A stretch of DNA of 64,000 nt, taken from the NCBI GenBank assembly GCA_020543525.1, contig JAHYIO010000006.1:1922001-1986000 (forward strand), written 5' to 3'. The DNA is from Coriolopsis trogii. Taxonomy: Eukaryota; Basidiomycota; Agaricomycetes; Polyporales; Polyporaceae. Positions 18,668 to 58,599 of the stretch are shown here, piece by piece. Position 1 is the stretch's first letter, and each line of letters opens with the position of its first letter. The notes beneath the pieces were generated by a model. It had not been told where the DNA came from. It worked only from the letters and a program-made list of their open reading frames with translations, and did not search any database. Both the position numbers and the translations under genes were made by a program.

Positions 18668-18739
18668 CCGCTCTTGCATCTGGCCCACTGGACACAACAA
18701 TCTCACACTCCCTCTAGCGCTCGCACATCCGAGAAACGC

Positions 18740-23514: not shown

Positions 23515-25098
23515 TTAGAACTTCATCGCTTTTGCGTAGCGCTCCAGTGCCTCGGCGGCATCTTTCCATACATTCGCTGAGGAGGCCGGCGGGGCATGAC
23601 CGCCGTCTGCGGGCCGGGAAGCTATCTGCGAATGATGCGTGGTGGTTAGTGGTCAGTTACGAAGGGAAGGGTCGACGAGGAGTGTCTACCTTGGAGGTGA
23701 CGGCAGCGTTAGGGATAGTCAACGCCTCGGACAAGGTGGCTTGCAGCTGCATAGCACGGACGGAGTTAGCGACAACTGACGTCCACATGCCACGGATGAG
23801 CCCACCTCGGTCGAGACTTGGAAGCAATCTCTGAAGAGCGCGACTTGTGTTTCGAGCAGGGACTCGATCTCTATGATGCCCTCTTCTATCGTGTTCAGTT
23901 CGACGACGACGGCCTCCAGGCCGGGAAGCTCGTGGCTCTCCGAGTCTGGAGGCCCGTTAGGGTCACAGCTTGGCGGACGATCGGCTGCATTAGGGAGCGA
24001 GCTCGATAGGTTATGTTGTGAGACATCGTCACGGGATGGGGAGGGGTGCACACCCGACTGGGATCGGATGGTAGCGTCCGGCGGCGTCGTGGTCTCAGTG
24101 CTCCCGATCGTGGCTTGACTACTACTGTTGGTCCTCGGACGAGGCTCGACTGCGCTGCCTGACCATCAGCAGATCCAGCATCACATTAGCAGCCTGAACG
24201 CCAGCTGTGAGTGTTGAGCCCATACCAGGGTCCTTGCTCGCGCGTGTGGACTGCTGTCCGTCCGCCACTGCGCTCTTCGGGTTCGAAGCGAACTTTGACT
24301 TGAGTCGCTTGGGGATCAGGTTGGGCTGGGTCAGTCTCGTCAGCCTAGCCGAGTCGCCGAGATTGAAAGATGACACCTTCTGCGTCTCCCGCGAGAGTTT
24401 ATGGACGATCGTAGGGCTACTGCCAGTCACGGGCGACGTTGGCACTGCCGAGGGTGGTTTCCTGGGATGTCTGATGGCTCTGAGTTTCCGAAGCAGCACC
24501 GCTCGACGTCTCTCTGCCGGCGCTGGTGCGCTCGCAAACAGCTTGTGTCGCATGTCACGAACGGCGGCGCGCAGGGTGTTGAGTTCGGGGGACGCGTCGA
24601 AGCCTGGCGTGGCATCCAACCTCTGGCGAAACGGTCGAAGGTGATCATCTTGGCCATGGAGGGGCGTGTTCCGCGTACCGTCTGCAGACTCTGATATTCG
24701 TCCGCCAGATCCTGCCGCACGGCAGGAGACGAGCCCGCGAGCGGGCCGTGGTGAGTGAGCAGACGCGTATACGCTGCCCCGGCCCGGGTCAGCGGATTAC
24801 GTCATCAGAGGGCGACACGCACTGTTGATGGTCACGGAGAGTTCCATGGCGTATGTGTTCGATCTCTTGACCAAGCTCTCGTATGTCTGTTCCATGTCAG
24901 GCCTCAGCTACTGCAGCACGCTCACGGCCAATCTCCTACTTCGACATAGGACTGCCACACTTTGAAATACTCAGTGGGATGCGTGGAAGCGGCGTCGACT
25001 TGGCTCATGATCCCTTTGTAGCTCGTGAAAGCTTGGTGAAGCCGTGTCGTGGACTCTGCGAGCTTCGAGGTGGCCGAAGGGACGCCTGAGGGATGCAT
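23515..25098 (-). CDS. Helical paired-gene family, subfamily A, copy A1
   Basis: An unrecognised protein, probably largely alpha-helical. Supported minus-strand exons are 25098-24940 (53 codons), 24886-24823 (exactly 64 nt) and 24773-24679. Further coding blocks lie at about 24640-24130 (many Arg/Lys/Ser), 24050-23810 (LNTIEEGIIEIESLLETQV) and the terminal block ending at 23515, where the protein ends ALERYAKAMKF. Shared landmarks with copy A3 are FKVW near the end of exon 1, SNT in exon 2, the LLETQ/MLGIQ helix and the ERYAK ending. No signal peptide or membrane segment is evident. It is transcribed head-to-head with B1, with 353 bp between start codons. The middle exon joins are approximate. 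Confidence 0.7.
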
Positions 25099-25451
25099 TG
25101 GAAGACGATATGGAGGACTGCGTGAGCTGGTGAGTCGAGTTCGGAGGATGGTGTGTATTGTCCACTATCGACCAAAGTCAACATATATATCCGCTAGCGA
25201 CATGCAAACGCGTGTCTTCAACATCCCTGCCTCGCCATTCATTTGGTCCCTGCCGCCGCGTGATAACCTCGCATCTATGGCCCACCTTGAGGCCACACAC
25301 GCGCTGGGTGGTCTTCCCTTGACCCTGCGACGTCCTGGGGCGGTCGCCGTGTTATAAAATCAGTGTGTGCAGCTTGCGGACGCGGGTAATTGCTCCCTCG
25401 TTCTCGACATTGCTTTTTACATCAACTCTGGGCTGGATTCCGCCAATCTCT
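25099..25451. promoter_or_regulatory. Bidirectional promoter of the A1/B1 pair
   Basis: A TATA box for A1 (catatatatcc, 25183-25193, read on the minus strand) lies 85 bp from its ATG. Another for B1 (ttataaaat, 25352-25360) lies 92 bp from its ATG. The two boxes sit almost symmetrically in the shared interval. Confidence 0.7.
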
Positions 25452-27104
25452 ATGGACGTCTACACATATCCGGACTACACCGCCATGTTCGAATGCTCCA
25501 CGACCTCGACATGTCCTGTAACGGACCCTTCACTTGCCGCCGAACTCAGCAGAGAGATCGGGAAGATCCTGATCAAGCCAGAAGTGCGAAGAACAGCAGT
25601 GGAAGAAGTGATCAAAGCGAGCGAGAGCGCCCGGGCTATCCGCAACCTCTTCCAGAGTGTCAAGAACGACCTCGAGATCCTGCGCGAATCGGGTATCGTG
25701 CTTCGTTACAAGCTACGCAAATATCCAGAGAGATGGACATGCCTCTCAGAGGTACGAGAGCAGCGTAGTGAGACATCTCAGATTCTGGATTCACTGCGGT
25801 AGAGATTCGAGGACCTGTTGAAGTCCAGTCGACAAGAGGCTATTGAAGCGTCCACCCTCATGGACAGTGAGTCGCGTCGAGGTGTTGGATACATCTGTCT
25901 GACACGTATCCAGGATACGTCACCTTGCTGAAGGGAGGAGACATACACTCCGCGACTTATCTTCAGGATTTGAGGATAGAACTAGACAGTTTCTTGCAGG
26001 TGCGCGGATTGCCACGCATCTTTGCCTTCGAGTTCTACTGATCACTGGCACTGAGCAGCACCTGGATGATCACCACCGCAAGGCAGTCAGCCTCTCCGCC
26101 GACTTCATGAGGCTGTCCAGCGAAATTGACGCGTTCAGGCTTCGACTCGGGCGCCTGGGGGACGTGTCAAAGAAGATGAACGAGGCTCGTAACAAGCTGT
26201 TCACCCTCAAAAAATACCTGCAGCGGTGTGTCGTATTAAGATCATGCTGACGTTCAAGCGCACTCAATTGGGCCGTGCCAGAGCTGACCAGGAGGTCATA
26301 CGTTTCGTGGGCCATGCATGTATCCACGCTCATGATCCTCTCCTTTGCTCAGCGAACCGACAAGTGGACACGAGCGGTCTCAATCATCGTCAGCTTGGCT
26401 ATGGTAGCTGGACAAGCCGCGGTGGCCATCCTGACAATGTCACCAATGACCATTGGAGCTCTGATCGTATGCGGAATGTTTTTCCTTCGTGGCGAGCGTA
26501 CTCATCCCACGTCCTCGAATGCAGGTCGGGATTGTGAACTTCGTGACCAACCTTATCACCGCTGAACGTGAACGAAAGAAATCACTCGGTCGGTAAACAC
26601 GCTGTATCGGTCCCAACTTGCGTCATTCACCTTGTCTCGTTTGAAACCGGAGTACAGCTGAACAGCAAGAATTGCTGGACTGTCAGCGGAAGATTGACGA
26701 CTTGCTTGAGCAACAGCGCCTGATAGCCGAGTTCACGGAGACATTCAACCAGAGCACGAACGAGAAAATCACCAACATCATCAAGGACGTCCAGGCTGTA
26801 TCGCACTTTTGGGAGAAGGTGGGTTGCCGCAGTACCAACTTGACGTGCCCGCACGGCTGACACGGTCCGCGGGCTGCAGCTCAGGCTCGATGTCGTCAAG
26901 CTCCGTGCATCCCTCATCGCGGCAATAAACGACAAGGCGACGGAGAATGTGAGCTCTCCGAGTCACGCTCATGTATTCGCATCGGGAACTGACACAGAGT
27001 ACGAACGCTAGTTCTTCCGGCTCAAGATGGACGCTGCTTCGGATATATATGCGACTCTGATCGTACTGTATGACGAGTATGCCAAGAACACCGACTTGAT
27101 GTAG
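25452..27104 (+). CDS. Helical paired-gene family, subfamily B, copy B1, with central hydrophobic segment
   Basis: An unrecognised 376-residue protein, apparently intact. Exons: 25452-25751, 25803-25866 (64 nt), 25914-25999, 26059-26225, 26282-26294 (13 nt), 26353-26466, 26525-26588, 26658-26818, 26881-26949, 27012-27104; the total is in phase. Predicted structure: helices to about residue 210, a hydrophobic segment in residues about 215-248 containing GQAAVAILTMSP, then two long heptad-rich helices (LLEQQRLIAEFTETF; AVSHFWEKV) and an ending DEYAKNTDLM. There is no signal peptide. One central membrane-prone segment between long amphipathic helices is the layout of alpha-helical membrane-inserting proteins such as the ClyA/Hbl superfamily, but I see no sequence identity to them. 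It forms a divergent pair with A1. Confidence 0.8.
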
Positions 27105-27858: not shown

Positions 27859-28989
27859 TCAGAACATACGCCGAACGACATGCATCACGAACACGAGTAT
27901 CACGACCGACATCATCCCAGGTAACGCCCTCTGTCCGTCCGCCCCGTTGAAGAGCGGCACACTCTCCCCGATCGTCGCGTTCAGACAGTCGAGGAGCGGT
28001 CTGTCGACGTTCGCGGGGAGCGGCAGAGGCGCGGCGGGCGCGTGGCCGTCGGTCCGGAGCACAGCGGTATCGTTGTACCCATCGAGCGTGAGCACGACGG
28101 AGCTCGCGCGGTAGTACTGCACGGCCTGCTCCGGCTGCGGGTCCCTACCCGCCCCAGTGTAGGCGGCGGGCCGCGTCGAGGAACGGGCGGGGTCGTACTT
28201 GGAGCTGCAGTTGGTCCGGATGGAGGCGATGAGCGCGACGATGGTGCTGTTGTCCGAGAGGATGTGGAAGGTCGAGGTGTGGGGGGATCTGGAGGCGAAG
28301 GTGGCTTGCATCTCGGGGCCGCCGATGCGGGACTTGTTGTTCGGCTTGCCGTACTGGAACGGAGTGCTGAGGGTTAGAACATGTGTGGCGGAGGAACGAA
28401 GGAAAGAGAAGGTGGGACGTACCTCGTGTGGGTAGAGGTACGAGGGCCTGTAACCAGGGCTGGGCACGTCGTAGACCACTGGCCAGTAGACGTATGGGAA
28501 GTCGCGCCCCGCCACACCGAGCCCGCCACTCTGCCCGGGGTAACCGCTGCCATAGTACCTAGCAAGCAAAGACGAGTCCGTCAACGCCCGTTCCGTGAAG
28601 AGTTCGTAACCAGTCTCGGATACGTACGGGGTACCATAGACATTCTCTCGCGTCCCGCCACCCCTCGTCCGCCCCGCAAAAGGTTCCCCGGAGGGTATCT
28701 TCTCGCGCTTGGTGCTGCCGGGCCCGTACGAGGTCGCGCTGGAGCCGTACTTGCTGCCCGACACGGCCACAGGCGCTCCTTTGCTGCCCACAGGCGGTGG
28801 TGGCGACGACGCCTTTCCGCCTCCGCCTCTGGCGTGCCCTCCGGAGTGCCCGCCACTGTGTCCGCCACCGCCCTTGGGTTCGGGGACGGGCACGGGCGCT
28901 GGTGCACGCGGAGCTAGGGCCTGGTTGGAGTCGCCGTTGTCTGACGCTTCATGTTGCTCGGCGCTGGGGGAGCGGGAGATGATAGGCAT
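27859..28989 (-). CDS. Uncharacterised Gly-rich protein with C-terminal hydrophobic tail, family copy 2
   Basis: A predicted 330-residue protein, the most diverged of the three copies. Its N-terminus (MPIISRSPSAEQHEAS) differs and is followed by a Pro-rich stretch and a His/Gly repeat (GGHSGGHSGGHARGGGG). The shared core follows: EKIPSGEPFAGR, YGSGYPGQSGG, FPYVYWPVV, STFHILSDNSTIVALIASI, AVQYYRASSVVLTLDGYNDT and LLDCLNATIGESVPLF. The hydrophobic tail is MMSVVILVFVMHVVRRMF; ending in Arg-Arg rather than hydrophobic residues, it looks more like a membrane anchor than a GPI signal. Minus-strand exons: 28989-28628, 28558-28423, 28353-27859. The first Gly-region intron of the other copies is absent. 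A TATA box (tttatag on the plus strand) is near 29065. Confidence 0.85.
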   Translation of the reverse strand: MPIISRSPSAEQHEASDNGDSNQALAPRAPAPVPVPEPKGGGGHSGGHSGGHARGGGGKASSPPPPVGSKGAPVAVSGSKYGSSATSYGPGSTKREKIPSGEPFAGRTRGGGTRENVYGTPYVSETGYELFTERALTDSSLLARYYGSGYPGQSGGLGVAGRDFPYVYWPVVYDVPSPGYRPSYLYPHEVRPTFSFLRSSATHVLTLSTPFQYGKPNNKSRIGGPEMQATFASRSPHTSTFHILSDNSTIVALIASIRTNCSSKYDPARSSTRPAAYTGAGRDPQPEQAVQYYRASSVVLTLDGYNDTAVLRTDGHAPAAPLPLPANVDRPLLDCLNATIGESVPLFNGADGQRALPGMMSVVILVFVMHVVRRMF

Positions 28990-30589
28990 CGAGGTGGATG
29001 TTTGAGAAGAGAGGGGTGGGCGCGTAAAGGGTGCGCGGAGAGTCCAGTTGGTGGAAAGCTGCGCTTTTATAGTCGGGGAGATCTACGGATCGTCGCGTAT
29101 CGAAGAGAAGCCCTAGCACGCACGAGCCCGGAGTAGGCTGTGCGGACAAAAATGAGTAAACAACCAACCAACGGTGGTAATAGCACGAAGGTGGCAGGGA
29201 TGTAAGTTTCGGGTTCATGTATGGTCGAAAGCTGTTGGCGTGAACCGGTGCTGTTGTACCCACAATCTGCCTTTGGCAGGGAACATAATGGGCGCGGCTG
29301 GGATATGCAGGTATCTGGCATGTCAGAAATCCTCAGCGCCTTGTTGTGTGTTATTGTTGCGTATCATGATATAGCAAGCCATGTTGCAGAATAATTACGC
29401 TGCGATATCAGCCTTGTTCTTCCCCGGACACGAGGAGTCAGCGTCTGGCAACGGAGTCACTCGAAGACATACACACCTATACAAGCGAGAATCCTGTACA
29501 CGCGCTGCAGTTAGTCGTTTCGCAGCATATCTCTGCTTCGGGGGCGCGAGGACTTTCCGCACAGCGTTCACAAAGGCGTCGCATATGTGCAGGTATGCAT
29601 GTGATGGTATCGGATAGCGATTCCTCCCCATGAGACTCTGCAATCGACATACGGAGAACCTAAGGCAGTGATGGGGTCAGACAGCGCGACATCCGAACAT
29701 TTGTCACTCACAAAAGGGCTGGACGCAAACTCAAGGTACACGCGGAGGACATCGAGGACAGCACGGAAATGGCACTTGCGACGTGGAAGAAAGTGGATGT
29801 AAACACGGACAGAATACTCTCGCCACTGAGACGTGCGTATGCTCGGTGAACCTCGATGCAGCACCTTGAACAGGGGGAACGTTGGGATAGAACAGGGTGT
29901 AGGATTTGGATAGTTGTAGCAGACAACGGATCTCTCACAGCTTTCCAGAGCATGTAGAAAAGCTCTCATCGCGTGTCCTAATACCCTGATCTTGTCTCGA
30001 CAATACACTCGCCGTTGGAATGCTGGACGGCCTGGTACGCCTAGCACGGTCCCAGTTGTGTCTGAAGTGGCCATGCATACGTTCGTCACGAAGGTCGCAA
30101 GGGTATGGGAGTTATTTACAGGAAAGTCAGATCGGCGACGATAGTAGGTGGAACTCAGTAGGAGAACAAGGTTGAACCAGGCGTCTAAGATACCATTCCC
30201 GGTTGTCTTGGCTATCCTCAGTAGCCTTTTTTTGGATCTATTGTATGATTAGAAAACTAATCCTCGGTAGCCTTTTCGATCTGCAACTTCAGCAGACAAC
30301 AGGTAGAGACGTGACATCTCACAAATGTACCAGAAGATGGTGCGATAGTTGTTCATACAAGCAATGACCACTATGCTACAAAAGGCTGACAAACAGTAGC
30401 GACAACATTGCGTGGGCTGTAAAGTAATGAACACGAGTCCCAGACCAGGGACACAATCCGTGATCCGTCGTGAAGGGTATCATATCCATCATGAAGACGA
30501 AAGCAATAGCGTGTAAAGATCAGAGGGTGAAGAAGATAAGGAGAATATCGCACGGCAACGAGCACACATAGATGACAAGCACACAGAGA
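28990..30589. other. Intergenic, promoter of copy 2 and otherwise no supported gene
   Basis: Beyond the TATA box near 29065 I find only short overlapping open frames. About 30100-30589 is the 3' flank of the next minus-strand gene. Confidence 0.5.
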
Positions 30590-31665
30590 TCAAACGAGCG
30601 AGGAGAGACACCAAATCACGTATACGAGGCCGACTAAGCCTACACTAGGTACGTGCAGACCTGATGCTGAATCCGAGAAGAGCGGCACGGCTTCACCGAT
30701 GGTCGCATTCAGGCAATTCAACAGGGTCGTATCCACGTTGGACGGCAATGGTGGGGGCTGGGCCTTCTCGTCGCCGGTGAGGGCCGCCGTGTCGTTGTAG
30801 CCGTCCAAGGTGAGGACGACACTGCTAGCGCGATAATACTGGACGGCCTGTTCCGGGAGAGGGTCCGTGGCAGCACCATTGAATGCTGACGGAGTCTTGG
30901 AAGAGTTCGACGCAAAGGAGGAAGAGCAGTTCGCAGAGATGGAAGCAATGAGCGAGACGACGGTGCTGTTGTCGGCGACAACATGGAAAGTGGAATTGGA
31001 GGTCTTTGACGAGAACGCTGCTTGAGTCATCGGGCCGCCAGGTCGACTTGAGTTGTTTGGCTCGCCGTACTGTGAGAGTATTAGTCGCTGCGCAACGCGG
31101 TCGACATCAAGACTGCTCACCTCATGGTTTGAGTGCAGGTATGCCGCGCCGTAGCCTAGTCCACCACCCCATACAAGGGGCCAGAAGACGAAAGGGAAGC
31201 CACGATTCGCAACGCCAAGGCCGGTAGTGCCTGGATAGCCACTGCCGTATGCACTGAGAGGAAGCGAGTCTGAGCAGGGAAAATCTTGAGCAGGGGCTGT
31301 CATACTCACCGGTTGCCAAATACGGAGTCACGCGTCGCGCCGCCAGACGTACGACCCGCGAAAGGCTGACCGGCGGGAATGGTGACGGCCTTCGTGCTTC
31401 CAAAGCCGTACGAGGTGGCCGACGACCTCCCCACTGTCGAGCCCGAGACCGGAACGGAGGCCCCGCGGCTGCCTACGCTGCCACCCCCCGTGCTACCACC
31501 GCCGCTGAGGTTCGTGATGTTTGAGCCTCTGCCACATCATGATCTGCGAGAAGTGACTGACCTTCCTGATGATCCGCTCTTGCCTCCCCCACCTCCACCT
31601 TTGCCTCCGCCTCCCTTGCGGGGATACAGGCGCTTCTTAGATTCGGAGATTCCGGGAACGTACAT
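30590..31665 (-). CDS. Uncharacterised Gly-rich protein with C-terminal hydrophobic tail, family copy 3
   Basis: A predicted 303-residue close paralogue of the gene at 18740; the C-terminal exon is nearly identical. It starts MYVPGISESKKRLYPRKGG, followed by a shorter Gly-rich tract. The core is VTIPAGQPFAGR, YGSGYPG, FPFVFWPLVWGGG, AVQYYRASSVVLTLDGYNDT and LLNCLNATIGEAVPLF, and the tail is GLVGLVYVIWCLSSLV. Minus-strand exons: 31665-31562, 31504-31310, 31253-31121, 31069-30590. The last two have exactly the lengths (133 and 480 nt) seen in copy 1, pointing to a recent duplication followed by inversion or transposition. A TATA box (tatata on the plus strand, about 31748-31756) lies about 85 bp upstream. 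Confidence 0.87.
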
Positions 31666-33888: not shown

Positions 33889-34211
33889 CAGGATGAGCAG
33901 GTAAGCTTCTCGCCCGTTCGGATGGTCGTACTTAAGTCTTCGACTCCAGGACCCTTGAACCCTGTCGGCGCGTCCACCATGCCGTAATGGTCCACCACGG
34001 CGAATCGTGCGTGTGGCAAGTTGCAATGAGGACACGTCCACAAATTGTCAGCAGACGGCGGCGCCGAGCCGCAGACTGACGTAGCTTCTATGCGTGTCGC
34101 ACACGCCTCCAGTGGCAGGGTGGACGAGTCGTGAAGCTAATAAATGTAGCTCGAATCAGCAATTGCTCATCACTACTCCCTTTGACTGACCCCTCTCCGC
34201 CGTTCGCCAGC
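33889..34211. promoter_or_regulatory. Bidirectional promoter of the A2/B2 pair
   Basis: The 323 bp between divergent start codons must contain both promoters. A weak TATA-like run (taataaatg, about 34137-34145) precedes B2. No clear TATA box is seen for A2. Confidence 0.5.
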
Positions 34212-35972
34212 ATGCCTCTTTCCGCTATGCGCACGACGCTTTTCGCACCGCGCACGACTCTTCTCGCGCCTCACGCCTCCCACTCCGTTGCTTCCTGTGT
34301 TCAGGACGCCCTCAATGTGCTCTTCACAGGGGATGCCCCAGAGTTGTTCAGCACTTCATCCGCTTCTGTCAACGAGAACATCAAGGCGATCCGGAGACTC
34401 ACATCAATAGTCCACGAAGTCCAGGCTGACTTCATGTCAGTCACAAGGCAGTTGATTCGTTTCGACAAGATGAACTATCGTGATCAGCATGGGTCGGTCA
34501 TCAAGCCGCTAGCGCCGACATGGAGAGAATACCACAAGGTGAGGCCGCGCATGTGACGTCCAGCTACCAGTACGCAGGGCACCCCTGAATGTCTCATGCA
34601 GAAGTTCAAATCCGTTCTGAGGAAGAGCCAGGAGAATGCCAACAAAGCCAGAGTATACATGAATAGTATGTGTTATGATACTCTATTGATAACCCCGACT
34701 TGCCATGTCGAAAGATCTCACATGGGCGAATTTGAAGCTTATACAGATGCGATCTTGAGAGATGTGGACGATTCCAAACTAGAGGGACTGCAACGTGAGC
34801 TTGGAGACTTTGTGAATGTGAGTTGGCCGGGTCATGTCTTCCGCCGCACCCGGGGCACTGAGTCTCCAACGGCCTCATCACTTTCTTTATTCAGAAGCTA
34901 GATACTGCCTACATACAGGCGCAAGGAGTGTCGGAGGATCTTGAAGATCTATCCGAGAAAATCGCTGACTTCAAAGTGTTAATTGAAGTCACGATCGATG
35001 ATGCTTTCGAGGCGGCTCGGGCAAAGATTTCGAGCCAACTCGATACTACTCGGCTTCAGTTGGATCGGCTTCACTCTCGTCTGACTCAGTGAGTCTGCAT
35101 GCACTACACTTGCGACGCCCACCGTGCTGACGCTACAGGGAACAGGATGAAGGAGGTATACCTGATGCTATGAACACGATAAGTCCGGATGTCACCTGAC
35201 GGAGGCTTGTGGCAGGCACCTGGAACAGGCTTCGACGTGATCGCTTCGATCATTGGTTCTATTACTGTGGGGGGTGCCTCCGCAGGCATTGCTGTCCTGA
35301 CACTGTCGCCAGCTTCCATTGCTCTTTCCTTGGTACGTTTTCTAGGAGCAGTTTCCTCACTCATGCTGTCCGCGAGCGAAGATACTGACTATACACATAG
35401 GCGTCGATCATTACTGCGATCAAGGACGCGATCGATCTGATCAAAAAGAAAAGACAATCCGGTGCGTACTTCCCCTTCATATATACCAAAGGCGCCGTTT
35501 AAACCAGATTTTCGTCCATGCAGGGGGGCAGCGCAGAGAGATCGCAGAGTGCGATCAAAAGATTGAACAACTGGAAGCTCTGGAACGTGCTCTCAAGGAC
35601 CATGAGGCGGACCTCAGGACGTCGATGGAGACTATGGATCGCATTGTGGAGAAAATTCGCGATATAGGAGAGACGTGGAATATCGTAAGGCTTCTAGTTG
35701 ACCGTCTCTGCTCCGCCTAGTGACCCCAGGATTCAATGCGTTAGCTTAAGACGGATGTCGACGCCCTGAAGCAACAACTGACCTTGGCTATCGAGATGGG
35801 AACACCTGTCACCGAGGTGAGTAAAATCAACGAATACTAGCCGTTTTGCGTATCTCTCACATCGGTACGTCCAACTCAGCGCTTCGACAGGAAGATTCAG
35901 GCGACTAGAGGCTTGTACCGGCAACTCTCCAAGATGCTGGAGGAATATGCAAAGCAATCCCTGAGCATTTGA
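34212..35972 (+). CDS. Helical paired-gene family, subfamily B, copy B2
   Basis: An unrecognised helical protein. The first exon is 34212-34538 (109 codons, MPLSAMRTTLFAPRTTLLAP) and the second 34602-34665 (64 nt, starting KFKS). Later blocks give a long coiled coil (about 34895-35090), the hydrophobic segment near 35225-35335 (ASAGIAVLTLSPASIALSL), a basic stretch (DAIDLIKKKRQS), a heptad-rich helix (KIEQLEALERALKDHEAD) and the ending LEEYAKQSLSI with TGA at 35970-35972. It follows the B1/B4 plan but is the most diverged B copy. The N-terminal 40 residues are hydrophobic/basic and could be taken for a targeting peptide. It is paired head-to-head with A2. Confidence 0.7.
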
Positions 35973-36837: not shown

Positions 36838-38648
36838 CTACCACCCAACGTATCTGGTCACCGGGCCAGTCTGCAACGAGGAGTCGAGTACAACAAGCCC
36901 CACGGGCCCGATACCAGTGTCTCAATTCTCGAGCGAAGCCATGCAAGACTCGTCCGGCTCAATCTCGCACGTGTCAGCAAAAAGCGAGAGCAGCGCATAT
37001 ACTCGAGGCCACGCATCCGACGAGGGACCATCCTTGATAGCCTCCCACTCCACCGACTCGACGAGAGGAAACACAGCCGAAATCAACGCAGCAGTATGCG
37101 CCGGCTCAGCGGGCTCCGCGCATCCGAGGTACAAATTCGAGACAAGCGACCATCCGGGCGGCACGGGGCCCCTCAGCCCAATAGTGAGCGAAGGCGAGAG
37201 GTCGTAGACGGTTCGCGTTGATCGTGTTTGCGCGAACGCTGGGGTCTACGGCGACTTGGAGAGTATGCAGATGCGGACAACGATATGCGAACGGGACAAG
37301 GCCTGCGAGCGTCGCCTTCAGCGGGGTGTTGTGGTAGCATTCATGAAGGTCCCAGGCTGGTTCGAGGTTGAGATACTCGAGGTTTGGCCATGCGCGCGAC
37401 ATCGCGCCCAGTGTGCGGTTGTCGAGGATGATGGGCTCCCAGCCGTGCATGGTGAGGGAGGTCAGAGCAGAGAGCGCCAGGAGAGGGGTGAACACCTCGT
37501 CTGTCATATTGCATAGTGAGGTTTCGTGTCTTGCGAACTTCACGTCAAGAACGCGAAGCGAATGTTGGAAATAGCTCCGCTTCAAAGTCGAGAACAACTT
37601 GCGCAGGAGGGACGGGTGATCAGCGAGGGATGAAGTACTGTAAGTTGTGATGAGCGTATCCAGCTGGGGAGAGGATATAGCATCGAGGAGTGAACGCGTC
37701 GTCCATTGTAGGTTTTCCGTGTATAGCTTGAGCTCTGTCAGAACGGGGAAGAGACCTTGTACGCCCTTGTACGAGATGTTGGAGTCGCGGCCGACACTGT
37801 GTGTGCATGTCTGCGCCTGGAGCTCTCGGAGCTGCGGCAGGCTTCCTAGGATCCATATGCCTTGGGAAGTGATGTCTATCGGCTCGATGGCCAGACATGT
37901 AAGGTGGGAGAATCTGATGAACGAATCCGTGAGAGATGTCCAAGGAGTGGCGGGGCCATGGTATCCGCTGATCATCTAATCCCAGTCTATTCGGAGTTTT
38001 GTGATGCCGTGGCATAGGGTAGCCAAGCGGTCGAGGTTCCGAGGAAGGACAACGGCGGCGTCGCAGATTTTGAGGCTAACGTCGTCTAGCGTGGGTGCAA
38101 GAGCGAGGTAACTGACGGTATGGTCCAAATCAACGTACGTGAGAGATCGCAGGCGAGGAAAAAGGGGAACGGGACCAAAGCCGAAGAGAGCCGCCAGCGT
38201 GTTGGGATTAACACCAAGATAGATCCCGTCGCTTCTGCTGCTGAAGACTGCGTGATGCGAACTCGAGAGGTGTAAAGGCGGAGGCGGGCGAAATCAGCAG
38301 GAAGCGGGTAGCGTAGGAATGTCTGAGGGCGTATTGGCTAAATTGGAAGACAAGGGCAGCAAAATACACATACCAAAGTCTCCTAATACTTACCAGAGGT
38401 ATTTACGACTGGTGCGATCGCACAAAGGTCGGAAGGGAGAGTGGCAAGAAGAGGCAGCAGCGAACGGAGCTCGTACCACAGAACGTCGAGGGCTGGCTCA
38501 TGAAACGCCCTACAGGTCCTCGCAAGTGCAGATAGGGTGCAGAAATCGCGTTCTAGAAGTAAGTAGGATTTGTGGCAGCGTACTATGCAAATTGAAAGAC
38601 CAGATCGAGGAGCTCAGGTGGTAAGGCGAGAATACCCATGCGAGACAT
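36838..38648 (-). pseudogene. Decayed F-box/LRR protein gene
   Basis: Aligned by eye with the intact paralogue at 39166-41013, this copy has several lesions. The first exon starts MSRMGILALPPELLDLVFQF but meets a stop almost at once. A frame change lies near 38250 after SRVRI. An in-frame TAG follows KLRIDWD near 37976. Another frame change lies near 37200 after NANR. The stretch 37975-37200 is still open and reads like Leu-rich repeats (LGSLPQLRELQ; HTLQVAVDPSV). The final VGW and stop at 36838-36840 match the end of the intact gene. It may still be transcribed but cannot encode the full protein. Confidence 0.85.
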
Positions 38649-39165
38649 TGGGCCTGTTCAATGCGGAAAGTCAGATGCTGCCATGCATCAATCATGTTCC
38701 GTTACTCACTCCTTACTATGGCCAGGACCTCTTATTGCGCTTGGAGCTGGAGGAGTGCAGAGTCAAGGTACGAAATCAGTCAAACCTGGATCTGTCGGCG
38801 AGCGACAAAGGCCTGGGCGCTTCATTACACGGCCCGGGTGCAGCCGGAAGGAATGCGCATCCCCCTCAGTCCATCCTCCCGACCCTTGCGCACATACAGC
38901 CGGTACATAGTCCCGTTATCCTCGGATAATGCCCTGCATGCAATCGACCTTATCATACAAGTGAGTACTATAGACATTGGTACCTTTGAGGCGGTATGAT
39001 AGATGAGATAACGGAAGAAGGGTCCTTGGAAATGCAACGCATTCGAGAATGGAGAGTCACGCATACGAGTTTGCCCGGAACAGGAGTCATCCGGCAGGTA
39101 TATGGGGTTGTGGAGACCAGGAGCATGGCAGATGATAGGACTAGCGGGCAATTGCGGAGAAAGTG
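38649..39165. other. Intergenic, no supported gene
   Basis: This lies between the decayed and intact F-box copies. It contains short plus-strand open frames only. Confidence 0.5.
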
Positions 39166-45504: not shown

Positions 45505-46220
45505 TGCGATGGCCAATACCGGCATTCCCAACCACCTGACTCGCTCCGCAACCTCGTCTTTCGCCGCGTGCTCTGCTTCCACAAGCCATGCCTCACCTGG
45601 ATAGGTATGTAGCCTTACAGTGCCTCCCTGGCTGCACTAGCGACGCAGTGCCGCGCGTTCGATGAATCGGCCCCTTTCATGCGAACTCTCCTTCGATGCT
45701 GCCTCTCCTCTCCGTGACTCTCCGTTCTGATCTATTGGTGATATGAGTCACTACGAGCAGATCATGTATCTGGAATACCGGTAATTGAGTATGTGGTACA
45801 TTCTCATCTCGTCTCTACTCCATTGTGCCTAATGCGTTAGTAGGGTTTCTTTCTTTCCTGTCGACTTCGACCGCTTCCCCTGCCCTAAACTGCACACCCT
45901 CACCGCAGTCGCTGTCGACACAACTGTCTGCGCAGACACGATAGCCACGACAACGAGAACAGTCTATGATCTCTCGCCTTCTCCCGGCCCGTATTCAGGC
46001 TTATGGGCCCGTGCGATGGGAGGCTCTCATAGAACGCTCTACGTCACATGCGTGGCCGCGAGTACATGCGCTGTTGTCGCTCTTCGCTGAGATGTCCGAG
46101 GCGGGGTTGCAGCTCGTCTGTGCGGATTCAGCTGATGTGGATGGGAGTGTCGTACCTAATGCGTTGGTGGTGTTAAAATTGGTACATCACGGGTCGGTAG
46201 CGAGATATATTGGGTGGTAG
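45505..46220 (+). pseudogene. Internally deleted F-box/LRR gene remnant
   Basis: Reading the plus strand, fragments of the same family as 39166-41013 appear in order but in different frames: MANTGIP at 45510, a LVFRRVLCF-like F-box piece, SLAALATQCRAFDE near 45640, and a C-terminal piece WPRVHALLSLFAEM through ARYIGW with its stop at 46220. Most of the Leu-rich repeat region (over 1 kb in the intact gene) is missing. It is in the opposite orientation to the other copies. Confidence 0.75.
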
Positions 46221-47788: not shown

Positions 47789-47841
47789 CTATATAGCTAT
47801 GGACAGAGGAGGGTCCTCGGTAGTGTTCAGCACTGACTAGA

Positions 47842-48568: not shown

Positions 48569-49173
48569 CTAAATCCTGGAATATCCTTCGAACATGATGA
48601 TCAAGGTCGGATATATTTTTACAGCCGTCTGCAACTTAGCCTCGAAGAACTGCAGTTGCATAAGTCACGGTTGATGACAATCTTTTGCAACACTCACAGT
48701 TTGTGTGTAGTCTTGTTTGATTGCGATCTCCAGTTCTGCGTTGAGCCTGACGAGATCGTTCTTCAGCTATAAAGGGCGACATGAGATGTACGGTTAGTAT
48801 ACGTCCGAACATATGTTAGTGGGAAGAACGCACGATATCCCAGAAGTGGGACACAACCTTCAAATTCGATACTACGCTTGTGACTTTGTTTGTAGTGTCG
48901 CAGAACGTCTGGGAGTAATCCTCGAGGAGTTCTTGTTGCTTCAACAATGCGTTGATCTGGCGTTTGCAGCGGCTGATATCCAATCCGGCCTCGTCTGCGC
49001 GAATTATATCGTCAAGAGTCAGATCTGCTGATGTGTTCGTGGTACTTACCCAGTCGTTTCTCCTCTCCGCGTAGAGCATTGATTATCTCTGTTACGACGT
49101 TCAAAGCCGCTGACTGAGTCAGACTGTTAGTATACGCCGTAGGTACGTGGCTGACGACGCACTATTGCAGCAT

Positions 49174-50647
49174 CAGGAAAAACCTGAAATCCTAATAAGA
49201 TATAATTTAGAGAGGTCGGCCAATAATCCGAATAATACCTGATAATGTCTGCTATCTCTGCCCCGGGTGTATGTTCGAGCTATGAAGGTGTTCGCTGCCG
49301 TCGCTAAGGTCACATCCGTACATCCGGCACGAGAATTTGTGTCATAGTAGGTAGACTCGACATGAACTGACTGAATCAAGTAGCGACCGTGGCAAGCGCT
49401 CATGATTGCCAGATCCGTCAAGTGCTACGGGACCTGCCCTAAACACATCCGGCGTTCTCCGAAGATCGTTCGGGTGCCCTCCAGTGTTGAACTTCGCGGC
49501 TCTGACCACCACCGCGCTTCCTTTCCTCCTGCTGTCTCGTTTTGGGGCTATCTGGGCTCAGTTTCTGGACTTGGGCTCGCTTCAGGCTCTTGAACTACGT
49601 CTGTGGCTTGCTCACTATCTAAACTGCCTCGACTGTGATCTGACTGGGACACCTACTGATGTCGGTCGGTCGAACGTGCAAATGTGAAGTTCCGGGTGGC
49701 GGTCATGGGAGCCGAGGAAGTTGGAGGGGCTGTCCTGGTACATTGCGTGGTGTCCAATTCCTTTCTCGGTCAGTCTCTGGTAGGGTCTCTGGTAGGGCGG
49801 CGGTATGTGCAAGGGTACCACACACAAGCATACAGGTGGCCGTGTTCATCGGGTGAGGTGCCAGGCCCATTCAATGTACGTATCGCTTCATCACTGATTC
49901 ACTCTTCCTCATTGTGACGTTTAGTCGTGGACGCCCCGAAGCTGAACTGCGGCAAGTGTGAAGCCAATCCTCGAAAGCAGGTAGCAGTCTGTTCAAGCTT
50001 CGGGTCATATCGGCCACTGACGTGTGTCTGTTTGTAGTGATAGACCGACGGAGAAGGGACACCTGATACTCACGACCGATAAGACTGGAAATGTGTGGGA
50101 GCGGTGATGGTTCGTACTGAGACGGTGCGTGTATGACATGGACATGGAACGTTGTGAACACGCTAATGAGATTTGACCTTCTACAGACCGTACCTGCATG
50201 TAGCACACTCGAACCAGGTCGAGGACATGATGTGTTCAGCCTGAAAAGCGTCAACGTCAAGGGCTACATTGTACTAACTCAGCTGGAGGCACTTCCTCCG
50301 ATGTCCGTCAATGCTTGATGGTATTGGATATGCGTTCACGTTTCTTCTTTCTCTACGAGGGGTTGGGCCGACACTTTTGTCTTTATCTCGTTGTAGCACA
50401 TGCGCTTGTACTGTTAGTAGGTACTCGCAATATCAATGTGTTTTTGCCGTTCATGTGCTGCAACTGAGTGCGTGAGTGCGTGATAATCTGGACCTAAATA
50501 ATGGAATGTGGCAGCACTTGTACAACTAATGGTTCTCTAATCGCGCTTGTTATTTGGGGACCTAGCGAATTAGACTAATGAACTAATGGTCCGTATTAGT
50601 GATAATTAGAGATCATTACACCTAAATAGAGTTTTGGGTTTTCCCTG
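49174..50647. mobile_element. Insertion element of about 1.47 kb with short inverted ends
   Basis: The left end reads CAGGAAAAACC. The right end, reversed, reads CAGGGAAAACCC. Both ends continue into AT-rich sequence with TAAT-type words. The element sits between AT dinucleotides (49172-49173 and 50648-50649) in the coding sequence of B3. It can be read in two ways: an inverted-repeat element with a 2-bp AT duplication, or a TC...CTGA element inserted between A and T without duplication (Helitron-type rule). No transposase is visible, so it is presumably non-autonomous. Confidence 0.75.
49682..50320 (+). other. Gene-like cargo inside the smaller element
   Basis: Plus-strand segments look coding: VKFRVAVMGAEEVGGAVL near 49690, APKLNCGKCEANPRKQ near 49930, and STLEPGRGHDVFSLKSVNV near 50200-50260, separated by splice-like GT/AG pairs. 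I do not recognise the protein and cannot fix the exon joins. Confidence 0.35.
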
Positions 50648-50987
50648 ATGAGGACCAATAGCCATGGGAGACATGGTCAAGATTGCGAATACAGCCTGCC
50701 CCGCCGCCATAGCAAGCTGGACCAAAATGGGGATCGCCTGTTCCCACTTGTCGATGGGCTGCCAGCCGATGACGAGATGTGTGAGATATCCGTCTCCGTC
50801 GAAGGGACACAATTGCTCACCTGGTCCTGCACCCTGTTGACGATATCATGAGTCCGTTGCATGAGCAAGAGCAAAGTACTTACCGTTGCAACTCGTCTTC
50901 GAGAAAGGAAAGATGCCTCCGAGTCTGCTCCAGCTCGTTTGGGATCTGTTTGAGGCGGCCAAAGTCCTGATCGATGTCCTCCTTCAT

Positions 50988-52748
50988 CAGGGAAAGTCCC
51001 CCTTGCTAATTTGCGTTAATAGACGTTAATAAGCGCTTATAGTCGTGTTTTCCGACTTAACGCTAATGAGCTTACCCCTTTGCTAATTTACTCATTTAAA
51101 CCAAGTACTTTCACTGTATTAACCCATGTTAGACGGTCGTATACGTACTCTCAACTTAGACTAGGATCATAGTTGATACTAAAAAATCTTATATATAGGC
51201 AGCGTACAATACGACATGATTATGGACATATACAGGGGTGCATGAAGGACGACCAAATGGGATACCTTTTTTACCTCCGCGTGCTGACCACGGTTCGAGT
51301 AAGATGTACGACAAGCCGGGTGCCGATGGGATTACAGAGGCGATGCTCAAGGGTCTAGACGGACTCCTTGGAGAGGAGGTGCTTGCCGGTGTCTTCACTG
51401 CTCACAGTTGTGCGTGATCAGGAGAACAGAGTCGGAATTGTAGCTGAACAAGAACCAAGTATATACGCACTCACCAAGGTTTGAACCAGAGTCTCAAGAG
51501 ATCAAGACTATAACTGGCGACGGCATACAACTGTGAGGAGATAGATGTGAGTCCCATGAATGCTCAGAAGGACAACCCACTTACCCTCTGAGCACTGACC
51601 TTCTGGTCGTGACGCCTACTGATACCCTGCGGGTGGGACAGGACTAGATGAATACATTGCAGACGCTGATGACATAGTAGGACTCACTTATGATACATGC
51701 AGAGTGGTGTCTGTTGCGAACGCAGAATGGAATGGGAGTTGAGGACACTCAGACAGCTTGACAGCAGAGCACATAGCCAGGGCGAGGACAGTGCCAGCAC
51801 AGTTTCGAGGATGTGGATGAAGTTCAAAAGCGGACAACGGGAGGAGTGGGAGGGACGCGTCATCACTGTTGCGGAGTTTGAATTACTCGGATGTTGCTGT
51901 CAGGTGCCGTGCCAGTGCCACAATCTTCGACTGACCACCACCAAATACTGTAGCTCGCTTTCCTCGACGTTCCCTGGGGCTTCGACCTGCTCGGCATCAA
52001 GCACTGAGTCTCGATTCGCAAGTCCGGTGCCCGGGTGGTCAAGCTGGACAAGCCACTCCTCGTGGTCATGGCCCCCGGTCAGTGTCTTTTTGACCCGTCA
52101 AGAGCCGATCCACCCACCGCATGCCACCTCGACCTTCCGCTCCGCTCGGCCCAATCTCAGTCAAGGGCACAGCCGTCTTGTGGAAGGACACCAACCCGGA
52201 CAGCCTCAACGACGTTCTTCGACTGCAGTGGGAAGGTACATGCAAGCATGGTATGTCGGTGCATCGCCCACCTTCGCGCTTACCCTGAAGTTAGTCTGGA
52301 GACTAACACATGAGGCCCCTCTTAACTCCCACATGGATGACAATACCTCGTGCCATTCACCGTGTATGATTCTTCCCGTGCCATGTTCGCACTAACTCGC
52401 CCACACCCGTAGTTCTACAATTTGCAACGGTTTGAAGTCCCGGCAGGTGAGCAGTCGGTGGTGTGCACCATTCAGTGGCCGAGTGGTAACACACACTTTG
52501 ACATCGTGTTGAAAACTATGTCTAGCAATATGTGATGTATCATATACACGTCTTCGTTCCAAGCACTACAAATACACGCTGACCTGACCAAGACGAGCCT
52601 CAGTCTTTCTGAGATTTACTGTCGATTTTCCATGTTTTCGGGAGTGAGCAGGCTAGAGTTGCAAAATAGCGAGCGGCGAGCGGATGAATCTGGAATATTC
52701 CCCAAGTAGCGTTAAATTGGCGCTAATTTGCAGGGGGGAGTTTTCCTG
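50988..52748. mobile_element. Insertion element of about 1.76 kb with inverted ends
   Basis: The left end is CAGGGAAAGTCCCCCTTGC and the right end, reversed, is CAGGAAAACTCCCCCCTGC; both continue with AATT(T/A)GCG. A subterminal repeat of CCCYTTGCTAATTT recurs near 51072-51090. The flanks are AT on both sides (50986-50987 and 52749-52750), in the middle of a B3 coding exon. The terminal CAGG(A/G)AAA is shared with the element at 49174-50647, so both belong to one family. Confidence 0.8.
51950..52536 (+). pseudogene. Gene-like cargo inside the larger element
   Basis: Plus-strand blocks read FLDVPWGFDLLGIKH, then an in-frame TGA, then GARVVKLDKPLLVVMAPG. A splice-like gap is followed by KGTAVLWKDTNPDSLNDVL and a final block FEVPAGEQSVVCTIQWPSG ending at a TGA at 52534-52536. 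Unrecognised. The internal stop suggests decay, unless a short intron covers it. Confidence 0.4.
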
Positions 52749-53440
52749 ATGTTAAACCGTTCAATCTTTTTCGCAAGCTTCATGAACCCCTCCGCCGCCC
52801 TGTTTGCGTTCTTTCGCTTTTTGTGAAGCTCCTGTGCAAGAAAACCAATAAGAACTGAACCGTCGCGCGGTATTGCAGAGGTATCATACCTTCCAAAAAC
52901 TATTAAGCTCAACTCGTAAGTCTTTCAAGCCATCTCTGGTCGGTTGAGCTCCATTCAAGAGCATATAGTAGTCTGCGACGGAAGTCAGTGTCGGGAAGAG
53001 AGAACACGGGTAGAAATAGCTGACTTCGGAGAAGGACGGCAGCATGCACGGCATCCTCTCGGCTGGACCTGAACAGCTCCTCGAATTTCTGAATGAAGTC
53101 ATCAGCCAGGAGCACGAACACTGAAAATAGATTGTACCTCAATGTAAGCATTCCATCGTTTCAAATATTGGCGGGGGCTTGTGCGGAGGTTGATATTGAC
53201 TCTCATGATTGTAACGAGGTCGCTTTTGACTTTATCGAAGAGGTCTTTGATGACACGGACGCTCTCAACAGCCTCAGAAACGTCCTTGATTGCCTGTTCC
53301 TGTACTCCCGGAAGGGTGAAGATATCTCCATATTGCTTGATAGCCGGGCCGGACATTGAGCTCATGTCCGACCATGAGAGTTCCAAATTGAGGTTGATGT
53401 TCGTAGGCATCGCCGGTGCCGGACGTGTTCGAGTGAACAT

Positions 53441-53831
53441 ATTGAAGGCTGAGGCTTTGACTCAGAATCTGGCAGAAGACTTGGGTGGATTTCTGTCAGC
53501 CCTTTCCACGGTCAGCGTTATATATTGTGGCGTCATGAATCACAAGATTAGGGTTTGGGTTTGGATGCGGGTGGACCACACTACTGGCTGGCTCAAGGTG
53601 GTTCACAAAATGGAGACATCCATGAGGACGCAGGCGTACTGATCGACGGCCGGGTCTTCGCATTCATATTGCAACACGCGTTTGCGTTGCTCTCAGCTGC
53701 GTTGACACGTGGGCTGAGCTTGCTCGGTTGAACGCCTATAAAGCCCGAGGCTGTCGTCCATATATACCCACTGGGGTGGACAGTGGGGCCGCATCATTCG
53801 CAGTTTGCACACTATCTCGCATCTCTACACG
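53441..53831. promoter_or_regulatory. Bidirectional promoter of the A3/B3 pair
   Basis: A TATA run for B3 (gttatatattg, 53517-53527) lies about 80 bp from its ATG. Another for A3 (ctataaag, 53736-53743) lies about 90 bp from its ATG. The spacing is nearly the same as in the A1/B1 promoter. Confidence 0.65.
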
Positions 53832-55229
53832 ATGACCTCTCTGAACCCTTTGAACACACTTCCGGAAGCTAGCAAAGCGTTAGATATGCTCGGAAACTCT
53901 GTATGTGACCTCCACCAGGTCTTTTCAAGCAACGCCTCCATCCTCCGCCAATTTGATCAGTCAGAGAATACCCACTTCTCCAAGGTGTGGTCGAAGAACA
54001 TCGAAGTAAGACTCCGGGATTGGCCAAGGCTTCCTGTCGCTGACTAGATCAAAGAGATACGAGCGGGTAATCAACCAGTCAAACACTGCTTCTATTGAGC
54101 TCTCGGTGAACCTGAATAGTACGTGCTACGCTTAACTTCGCTGACCAAACTAACACCACTGTAGCATATGCTACATTAATCAAGAAGAAACCGACTGACC
54201 TGCCGTCTGGAACCGAGGATTTGACTCGCGAAGTTGCGAGTTTGCAAAAGGTGAAAACAATGTTTTGCCCATATTCTCCCTGCTTACTGGCGGACATGAC
54301 TGCAGAGATTGAGCAGCAAGACGTTCAATCCCTCGCAAAACTTGACAGCATTGCAGAAGTCGTTTCACAGCCTGGGCGAGAAGCTGTCTGCCAGGGCAAC
54401 AAAGCGTGAGGCTGTACGTCGTCGTCAGTTTGACGCGGCTTCGAAGAACGAAGCTCTAACCCCTGCCAATACAAGGTACGTACTGTGTACCTCTTCTGAC
54501 ACAGTCGTATTGATGCGTGGCCAACTTTAGATCTGGTGCAAGTCCGAAGGTAAGACAAAGTGCTGTAAACCCTTCTGCCCTGAATCTGACTGCACGGATG
54601 GCGCAGAACGGGAAGAACAACCAGCAGGATAAGCCGAGGATGTCGTTCTTTGCCAGATTGCTAGGTTGCTTCCGAGGGAACGGAGACGGTCCCGACGCAA
54701 GGCCCAGAAGTATCAAGACCACAACTACTGGTATGTAGGCAGCACTTCAGAAACGCTAGCACACGAGCGAGAATTTTTTGCAGCGCTGAGACCGACTACT
54801 GAGGCTCTCACAAAGCCACAAGCAACAAAAGACATAGAAGAGCCGACAGCAGTCGATTGCCAGACCCTGATCCGTGGAATTCAGACTATTGAATCAATGC
54901 TTGGGATCCAGATCGACCTCTTCAAGAAAGTCTTTCAGGTTCATGACGAGGTACGTGCAGTCCGGCATGAGCTATGATCGCTATACCTGTTGTTCATACG
55001 CAGTGCCACAGCTCAGGGCAGTTTTGGCGGCATTGTCGGCGTCTCTGAAGAGCAGAGATGCCAAGGTCGCGGTAAGCATATTCCTCTCTTATACGCCACT
55101 ATTTTACTCACCTTCCTGCAGAACAAGCAGGCATCTACCACGAATGGTAGCGAGGCAACTCACCCGGTTGAAATATGGCAGCAAGTTGGAGAGGCATTCG
55201 AGCGCTATGCAAAGCGGATGAAGTACTAG
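53832..55229 (+). CDS. Helical paired-gene family, subfamily A, copy A3
   Basis: An unrecognised helical protein. Exon 1 is 53832-54005 (58 codons, ending FSKVWSKNIE). Exon 2 is 54055-54118 (64 nt, RYERVINQSNTASIELS). Exon 3 is 54165-54250 (86 nt). Later blocks give LQKSFHSLGEKLSARA (about 54330-54400), a basic low-complexity region to about 54730, the helix block IRGIQTIESMLGIQIDLF (about 54870-54930) and the terminal VGEAFERYAKRMKY with TAG at 55227-55229. Exons 2 and 3 have the same lengths and phases as those of the B genes, although the protein lacks their hydrophobic segment. It is divergent from the broken B3, so this copy may now lack its partner. Confidence 0.72.
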
Positions 55230-56893: not shown

Positions 56894-56903
56894 CATATAT
56901 ATG
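56894..56903 (+). promoter_or_regulatory. TATA box of B4
   Basis: gcatatatat lies about 95 bp upstream of the ATG at 56996, the same distance as in the other B genes. Confidence 0.6.
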
Positions 56904-56995
56904 AGGCAACATGATCGGCCAAATTGAAGTCAGCCCCAATACCCACCTACCCCTTTTCTCTCTCCGTGACTGTCTAGCTGCCTCCCAAGCCCCCG

Positions 56996-58599
56996 ATGCA
57001 GGAGGCACCTATCACTCAGCCATCACCCCTTTTAGAGGAGAAAAGCGTCCTCGCCAGACTCCATACAGAAGCCGTTGAGGAATTTGTGCCTCGCTCAACC
57101 GAAACGGCAGTCGATGATGTCAGGAACATGGGTGAGAGCGTCCGATACATTCGGACTCTCTTTGCGGAGGTCAAGTACGACTTGGATGCCTTGCAACCAA
57201 CCCCGATCTACCTCCGCGCAAAGATTGCTGCGTATAAATACCGTTGGAATGTCTACACACAGGTACGAATTTACCATAGTATGAACTACTATCATTGTAT
57301 GCAAACCTTACATGATCTGGTCGCAGAAATTCGAGAAGCTCTTGAGACTTAGCCGTGAAGATGCTATGGATGCGTCGATCCTCTTGAACAGTGGGTCCTA
57401 CCAATCACATGTCTGAGCGAGGTATCTCATTTTTCACAGACTACACTTTCATACTGGCAAAGAGAGTGACATCGGAAGATACTCTGCGAGATATGAGGAC
57501 CGAGCTCTGCAACTTTTGTGCAAGGTGCGACTAATAGTTGTAACTGTTGACGAGATGCTAATCTGATTGGCCTCATATAGTCCTTGAATGTGAAGCACGG
57601 GAGCAGCAAAAGATTTTCTAACGACTTCAGACGTCTCACAAGAAGGATAGAGGAATTTAATCGCGATATCACCACAACTTCTGCAGGGGTCCCCCGACTC
57701 AGAGAATTTGCAGATGTTCAAACGAAGCTTTCCGCTCTACAGAGTCATCTACAAGTGTACGTTCCCTATCCTTCGTACCATGTGTTATGGGATTTAACAG
57801 AGGTTCTTAGAGCCAATGAGGAGGTGAGACACCGTCACTATACTGCTCGTAGTCTATGATATCAATCATACACCATTCAGGACCACGATCCCGTGATCTC
57901 GTCAATTGCTGAATTGACTGTTGGAGCGGGCCAGGCCACACTCGCAATTTTGACGATGTCTCCAGGGCTTAACCAAACGGTAATAGTATGCGTTTTCGCA
58001 TATAATTTTCTGACCATATGTCCGAGTCGCTTCAGACAGGAATTGCGCATGCCGTCAATAATGCAGTCCAGGTTCTGCACCAAAGGAAGCAACAACTTGG
58101 TGAGGAAGCATTACCGTCTTCCCTCATTTTCGCTGCTCACTATACAACTCAATTCAGAGGATCAGGACGATGTTGGGGCCCTCGAATGTGACCGCCAAAT
58201 CGAAAGGTTTACCGAGCACCAGCGCATTCTAGCTAGGCGCATAGAAGCGTTCACTAGTGCTGACACAAGAATCTCTGATGTGGTGGAAAATATGAAGGTT
58301 GTCGCGAAATTCTGGGAGGATGTAGGTACTCAATGACGTTGCTGCCACCCCACAACTGACTATCGATCTCGTTCTTTTAGCTGAGACTTGATGTGTACAA
58401 ACTAAGTCGCGAGCTCACATTAGCGGTCTTTCAGGACTACACGGCATCGGTACGTCCACCAGACGCGTGCGGCTGTGTGGGGTCTGACTATCGGAATGGA
58501 TGCTAGTACTTCTCAGACAAGATGAATGCTTCTCTGAAGACCTATTCAATCCTTTGCGTACTGTACGAAGAGTACGCCAGGAATCGCCACTTGATGTAG
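56996..58599 (+). CDS. Helical paired-gene family, subfamily B, copy B4 (unpaired)
   Basis: An apparently intact protein of 382 residues. Exons: 56996-57262, 57327-57390 (64 nt), 57440-57525 (86 nt), 57581-57823, 57881-57979, 58036-58099, 58158-58321, 58381-58449, 58507-58599. Exons 2, 3, 6, 8 and 9 have exactly the lengths of their B1 counterparts. Visible features are a helical N-terminal half, a hydrophobic segment at residues about 225-245 (GAGQATLAILTMSP), long heptad helices (FTEHQRILARRIEAF; VVAKFWEDV) and the ending YEEYARNRHLM. No signal peptide is seen. In the place of the 13-nt exon of B1, the sequence here is read straight through. It is the only B gene in the window without a divergent A neighbour. 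Confidence 0.82.

Follow-up and report, generated by a model that had tools for sequence, protein, structure and literature searches.

The window analysed here is a 64,000-nt stretch of the Coriolopsis trogii genome (38.8 Mb in 39 contigs) corresponding to C6:1922001-1986000, C6 being contig JAHYIO010000006.1; positions given below are those of the window unless they carry the contig label. It contains members of two gene subfamilies, A and B, which an initial annotation had described as three head-to-head pairs and one solo gene of a helical protein system. Family exons were found by homology between open frames, and gene models from a small splicing program were refined by comparison with one another; the earliest automatic models, which over-split the genes, were set aside. 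The spliced models showed A1/B1, A2/B2, A3 and the solo B4 to be present where they had been reported, with A1, A2, A3, B1, B2 and B4 open from ATG to stop and interrupted by GT-AG introns of 46-87 nt. In pair 1, A1 (25098-23515, minus strand) encodes 411 residues without a hydrophobic segment in seven exons (25098-24940; 24886-24823, which is 64 nt with a hand-chosen donor; 24773-24679; 24622-24226; 24158-23806; 23746-23690; 23625-23515), and B1 (25452-27104, plus strand) encodes 376 residues in 10 exons, the second at 25803-25866 (64 nt). Pair 2 consists of A2 (33888-32463, minus strand; 340 residues, eight exons, exon 2 at 33664-33601, 64 nt), the most divergent A, and B2 (34212-35972, plus strand; 390 residues, 10 exons, exon 2 at 34602-34665, 64 nt after curation). 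A3 (53832-55229, plus strand; 342 residues, eight exons, exon 2 at 54055-54118, 64 nt) is the A member of pair 3, and B4 (56996-58599, plus strand; 355 residues, 10 exons, exon 2 at 57327-57390, 64 nt) starts 1.8 kb downstream of it. Two more divergent pairs, all four genes of which are open from ATG to stop, lie beyond the window: B5/A5 (C6 ~1988673-1992056, gap 362 bp) and B6/A6 (C6 ~2001111-2004536, gap 447 bp).

The B gene facing A3 is interrupted. B3 (48572-53440, minus strand, first ATG at 53440) consists of family pieces at ~53461-52900, 50845-50609, 49082-48819 and 48664-48572, which are in order, are split by two inserts and were left unjoined in our models. Insert 1 (49150-50560, the stretch as searched) is a dispersed repeat of ~1.4 kb with eight near-full-length copies in the genome including itself; three of the others are 97-99% identical and four 82-83% identical, and the element has apparently been active recently. 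A search of 49050-50650 for inverted repeats of at least 14 nt was negative. Insert 2 (51052-52720; 51100-52700 as searched) is a repeat that also occurs, 91-95% identical and split in two, at C6:17088-18870 and as fragments in other places, and its inverted repeats (51052-51065 and 52707-52720; 14 nt, 86% complementary) could be due to chance. Since the two inserts split the gene, B3 is probably a recent casualty, and A3 was probably left without its own partner. The reported layout of three pairs and a solo gene was therefore seen, with the corrections that one B is broken and that the array continues past the window.

Comparison of the paralogues indicated that these loci are genes. Seven of the 20 comparisons possible within the subfamilies A and B were made, and in all seven conservation was highest at codon position 2 and lowest at position 3; because of this pattern we conclude, as far as sequence comparison can tell, that the A and B genes are under protein-level constraint; the same pattern and the common introns ruled out chance open reading frames. 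After curation, exon 2 was 64 nt long in all ten intact genes (five A, namely A1-A3, A5 and A6, and five B, namely B1, B2 and B4-B6), a count that includes five genes (A1, B2, B5, A5 and B6) whose exon 2 sites were picked with the 64-nt pattern in view: the program had given 68 nt for A1, had merged exon 2 with the next exon in B2 and B5 and had produced no model of A5, and B6 was built by hand. As the five automatic models of A2, A3, A6, B1 and B4 also give 64 nt, this size is common to A and B independently of the curation. The phases of the first four introns were 0,1,0,2 in eight of the ten models, the exceptions being A1 (fourth intron) and B4 (third intron). Exon 3 of B4 measured 85 nt versus 86 nt in B1 and B6, 80 nt in B2 and 83 nt in B5, and the following acceptor is shifted (57440-57756); this odd exon 3/4 junction makes the B4 model less certain, and B4 may be drifting.

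The division into two subfamilies was supported, and A and B proved to be more than co-occurring. Profiles of the two, compared with hhalign, aligned locally over 117 N-terminal columns with a probability of 95.7% (E 1e-8) and globally over 307 columns with one of 97.4%, and their C-termini form a similar helix (W...ALERYAKRMK in A versus Y...LYEEYAK in B). By these comparisons A and B are homologous. The ending ERYAKxMK that had been ascribed to the A proteins was found in A1 (ERYAKAMKF) and A3 (ERYAKRMKY) and not in A2, which ends in DGYAKGKTRH.

The two subfamilies differ in a hydrophobic segment, which had been noted in B only. The best 19-residue mean hydrophobicity was 1.36-2.28 in the five intact B proteins versus 0.83-1.35 in the five A proteins, in agreement with that observation; B4 was the weakest of the B proteins at 1.36, and the 1.35 of A6 lay elsewhere in the protein. 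The segment forms a hydrophobic hairpin, 46-54 residues long (~216-262 in B1, ~228-276 in B2, 216-261 in B5 and 210-263 in B6; weak in B4, at ~198-217) with an invariant S-P midway. The longest proline-free stretches in all five B proteins comprised 88-159 residues on the N-terminal side of the hairpin and 101-135 residues on its C-terminal side; the former abuts the hairpin in B1 and B2, whereas prolines stand between the two in B4, B5 and B6. At the place of the hairpin the A proteins have a low-complexity linker, with a short hydrophobic patch in A3 (MSFFARLLGCF), A5 (MSFFAKLLGWF) and A6 (SILVLLLGCF; a 12-residue patch of this linker reached 2.35) and none in A1 or A2. Amphipathic-helix periodicity was above that of shuffled sequences in all ten proteins (z 2.5-7.4, and 3.6-7.4 in B). 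No strongly hydrophobic N-terminus was seen by a criterion of window means (best 10-residue mean at most 1.69), no signal-peptide predictor having been run.

We searched the whole genome with seven single-protein queries (B1, B2, B6, A1, A2, A3 and A5, with B4, B5 and A6 not among them) and obtained a total of at least five A genes and at least six B genes, these genome-wide counts being lower bounds. All five A genes are head-to-head with a B gene, and five of the six B genes with an A gene; the minus-strand member is A in pairs 1 and 2 and B in pairs 3 to 5. An excess of A/B adjacency, the lack of which had been named as grounds for abandoning the proposed pairing, thus holds within this genome. 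Identities among A proteins and among B proteins covaried (r = 0.89 over the six comparisons that the four fully intact pairs allow), pair 2 being the most diverged on the A and B sides alike, and the view that the pair is kept as a unit is upheld by both observations. This correlation, from a small sample, is what whole-pair duplication would predict.

The shared upstream regions of pairs 1, 2 and 3 (25099-25451, 33889-34211 and 53441-53831) measured 353, 323 and 391 bp, within the reported range of 323-391 bp between start codons. The motif TATAWW occurs 91 nt before the ATG of A1 and 99 nt before that of B1, and in pair 3 it occurs 84 nt before the ATG of B3 and both 71 and 95 nt before that of A3; the region of pair 2 is without it. 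Beyond these, TATAWW was found at both starts in pair 5 and 100 nt before the ATG of the solo B4. Eight of 11 genes (three of five A, five of six B) have it 71-107 nt ahead of the ATG, versus 4.4% of 5000 random windows of 110 nt, and such TATA-like boxes would fit regulated transcription in both directions. No 7-nt word was common to the upstream regions of five pairs, and no 8- or 9-nt word was common to those of four.

All copies found lie in one cluster of ~59 kb near the contig end (C6:1945515-2004536), and no family exons were found outside it in the whole genome with the seven query members, three isolated matches on C1, C28 and C33 (E 0.49-0.54) being rejected as chance. Because of this confinement, local duplication appears to suffice to explain the copies, and the suggestion that whole pairs move or transpose was rejected. 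C6 terminates at 2033327 with two TTAGGG repeats, as would fit a chromosome end, and the cluster lies ~29-88 kb from this point; for this reason the cluster is probably subtelomeric.

Members of the ClyA-like superfamily are five-helix bundles whose membrane-active region lies between alpha4 and alpha5, according to the portions of PMC6162564 drawn on here, and a hydrophobic mid-chain segment is present in all five intact B proteins, weakly in B4. The proline-free arms, the helical periodicity and the central position of the hairpin would be indirect signs of such a bundle in B. The NCBIfam model NF033928 (alpha-xenorhabdolysin A, XaxA) matched B2 best (E 2.9e-6, residues 103-349 on model positions 104-307 of 339), followed by B6, of which it was the top match (E 3.0e-4, residues 127-333 on 117-307), and B5 (E 6.3e-4, residues 69-354 on 103-325), and all three alignments run through the hairpin. 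Other NCBIfam matches were NheB (0.028) and NheC (0.14) for B2, NheC (6.0e-4) and MakE (0.004) for B5 and MakB (0.017) for B6, and the Pfam family HBL (PF05791) matched B5 (E 8.5e-4) and B2 (E 0.4). ClyA-type toxins are thus the one functional family matched by several B genes. When the five B proteins were reversed as decoys, none matched a ClyA-type family at E <=1, and for this reason the toxin matches are not easily put down to long helices alone; caution is due, as four of the five decoys still matched generic coiled-coil models, and reversed B2 and B5 matched ESAT-6-type models (0.022 and 0.12). We conclude that B resembles bacterial ClyA-type alpha-pore-forming toxins remotely and in collinear fashion, which qualifies the statement that no described family matches: it remains true at curated cut-offs.

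From these observations we propose that the cluster, probably subtelomeric, arose by local multiplication and encodes a fungal system of pore-forming-like proteins with two subunits, a reading to which we give a slightly better than even chance. The genes themselves, their pairing and clustering, the A/B homology and the hairpin are observed, and the fold, the contact between A and B, the pore and the role are inferred. In this model, the membrane subunit would be B, whose helical bundle, with its two long arms and hydrophobic hairpin, would be comparable to NheB/AhlB or XaxA, and A would be a homologous helper without a hairpin, comparable to NheA/AhlA. The bidirectional promoter would yield both subunits together and keep A and B in proportion; the hairpin of B would enter the membrane, and A would pack on the helical bundle of B to give a hetero-oligomeric pore. 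That the pair might work like a ClyA-type toxin is suggested by the pairing of a hairpin protein with a hairpin-less one and by the remote collinear similarity. Because no signal-like N-terminus was seen, the products would be expected to act inside the cell or to be released on lysis, and their role could be defence against predators or competitors, or that of a cell-death effector. A bolder form of this proposal, which we rate as less likely than not, is a eukaryotic, intron-bearing arsenal of two-component ClyA-type alpha-pore formers, with a bidirectional promoter in place of the bacterial operon; the several diverged chromosome-end A/B pairs would make pores with different, perhaps mixable, specificities.

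Several results weigh against this proposal. The NF033928 scores of B2, B6 and B5 (26.8, 20.2 and 19.1 bits) are far below the 125-bit cut-off, and the HBL scores of B5 and B2 (19.6 and 10.9 bits) are below the gathering score of 29.1, B6 not being listed for that family; membership in XaxAB or HBL/Nhe thus fails at curated cut-offs, and membership in a known family is not established by these scores. NF033928 has no listed match to B1 or B4: B1 has no ClyA-type match at E <=5 in NCBIfam, and the sole ClyA-type match of B4 is NheA (E 0.063), which is fifth-ranked, covers residues 57-187 and ends before the hairpin. None of the five A proteins matched a toxin family, XaxB (NF033927, 40-bit cut-off) included, and generic coiled-coil models scored better in B5 (1.1e-11). 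The XaxA model also gave sub-threshold matches in six of 14 control genomes, and the XaxA and XaxB models had no match on the six-frame genome, an outcome to be expected of genes made of short exons and therefore uninformative. Wider searches were negative as well: no protein relatives appeared among the ~8000 candidates scored per search of a large protein collection (two B queries and one A), none of 14 pattern matches in a collection of genome contigs was confirmed as a related locus, and sequence searches of the PDB gave nothing above coiled-coil noise among the matches listed, those to influenza HA2, lamin and spike being rejected as noise from small profiles.

The same matches to generic coiled-coil models, which were seen for B2, B4, B5 and B6 as well as for four of the decoys, would be expected if A and B were intracellular coiled-coil partners, with B anchored in a membrane and A soluble, that serve in structure, trafficking or tethering and make no pore; the toxin matches would then come from long amphipathic helices combined with a hydrophobic hairpin. 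Weak Pfam matches to a spectrin-like repeat (B2) and to Pex24p (B1) point the same way, as does the lack of a signal-like N-terminus. However, among families of definite function it is the ClyA-type ones that recur across several B proteins, through the hairpin in three and in no reversed decoy, and the repeated local duplication, the high divergence and the site near a contig end fit a role in conflict better than one in housekeeping. We consider such a pore-free partnership unlikely.

A system of non-self recognition or programmed cell death, in which A, or a mismatched A/B combination, silences or unleashes B, would be compatible with pores, the target being self membranes. It would fit the grouping of several diverged pairs at one locus, the association of a partner with a hairpin protein and, again, the lack of a signal-like N-terminus, and SesA (PF17107), a domain associated with fungal NLRs, weakly matched B2 (E 0.0011, residues 259-331) and A5 (E 0.14, residues 100-128). 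These matches, however, scored 19.5 and 12.7 bits, both under the gathering score of 26.3, and they occur in two of ten genes on different short parts of the proteins; SesA was not among the best 25 of 68 Pfam matches of B5 and was not listed for B6. This explanation is in our judgement quite improbable. Basidiomycete HD1/HD2 mating-type loci likewise consist of several divergent gene pairs, heterodimer-like and alike in layout to those described here, but a homeodomain locus is hardly credible and was rejected, as the Pfam matches listed gave a homeodomain in neither member, whether in A1-A3 (seven of seven families), A5 (six of six) and A6 (no matches) or among the best 25 of 35 matches of B1/B2/B4, the best 25 of 68 of B5 and those listed for B2 and B6, and a transmembrane hairpin is, to our knowledge, foreign to HD proteins.

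The proposed two-subunit pore formers can be set beside known systems. XaxAB/YaxAB (NF033928/NF033927) likewise has two helical subunits acting as a pair and adjacent subunit genes (here, all five A genes are divergent with a B gene), and among ClyA-type models B2 and B6 score best with NF033928, to which they align collinearly across the hydrophobic region. In YaxAB, the A subunit binds the membrane and recruits B, in 1:1 protomers, as described in the portions of PMC5935710 used here. Unlike in that system, the fungal B scores are far under 125 bits, the A proteins are without an XaxB match and the genes are intron-bearing and divergent, whereas both XaxAB/YaxAB subunits have membrane-active feet. 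Nhe/Hbl/Ahl (PF05791) resembles the fungal proteins in its split between hydrophobic and non-hydrophobic subunits: in the sections of PMC6602965 consulted, NheB/AhlB have a hydrophobic stretch of 54-63 residues (46-54 residues in B1, B2, B5 and B6) and NheA/AhlA have none, and AhlA is proposed to supply the hydrophilic pore lining. Those toxins have three components, however, the third (NheC/AhlC) with a hydrophobic stretch of 22-23 residues, in contrast to the two kinds found here.

Among fungal systems, ostreolysin A and pleurotolysin B of Pleurotus are described as a two-component pore former whose parts act together, but they are an aegerolysin and a MACPF protein of unrelated fold, and neither family is among the A/B Pfam matches listed. 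HET-S/HeLo-type proteins are described as fungal membrane-active (pore-forming) cell-death proteins; they differ in that the sub-threshold SesA matches were confined to one B and one A, and in the long central hairpin and obligate pairing proposed here. Bacterial members are the subject of the portions examined of the ClyA-type literature (PMC6162564 and PMC9558359, the latter a review limited to bacteria by design); those of PMC9558359 mention aerolysin-family pore formers in fungi and name no fungal ClyA-type one. No fungal or eukaryotic ClyA-type member was found among the papers listed by searches of a partial literature collection.

Other genes in the window include NMD3, S6e, F-box and WSC/DUF1996 genes, a content that, like the intron structure, looks fungal. 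Near or within the cluster are three Gly/Ser-rich paralogues whose C-terminus is hydrophobic, at 18596-19926 (plus strand, assigned by eye), 27862-29082 (minus strand, without a Pfam family at E 0.001) and 30593-31536 (minus strand). A leucine-rich-repeat-like gene is tandemly duplicated at 36841-41037 (minus strand), with ~72-75% identity over the longest stretches, sub-threshold Pfam matches to LRR and F-box-associated families and a further fragment near 45833-46217. Dispersed DUF1996/WSC-domain genes lie at 9210-10403, where Pfam confirmed the assignment, and at 5209-6210 and ~62833-63306, both assigned by eye.

If the A and B proteins do form two-subunit pores of this type, a toxin architecture would be extended to another domain of life, and a two-part ClyA-type-like toxin would be new for a fungus. 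The cluster would also show how an obligate two-subunit machine stays together without operons. Furthermore, because the intron positions of A and B still match, these genes would offer a tractable case of a hairpin subunit and a hairpin-less helper diverging from one ancestor.

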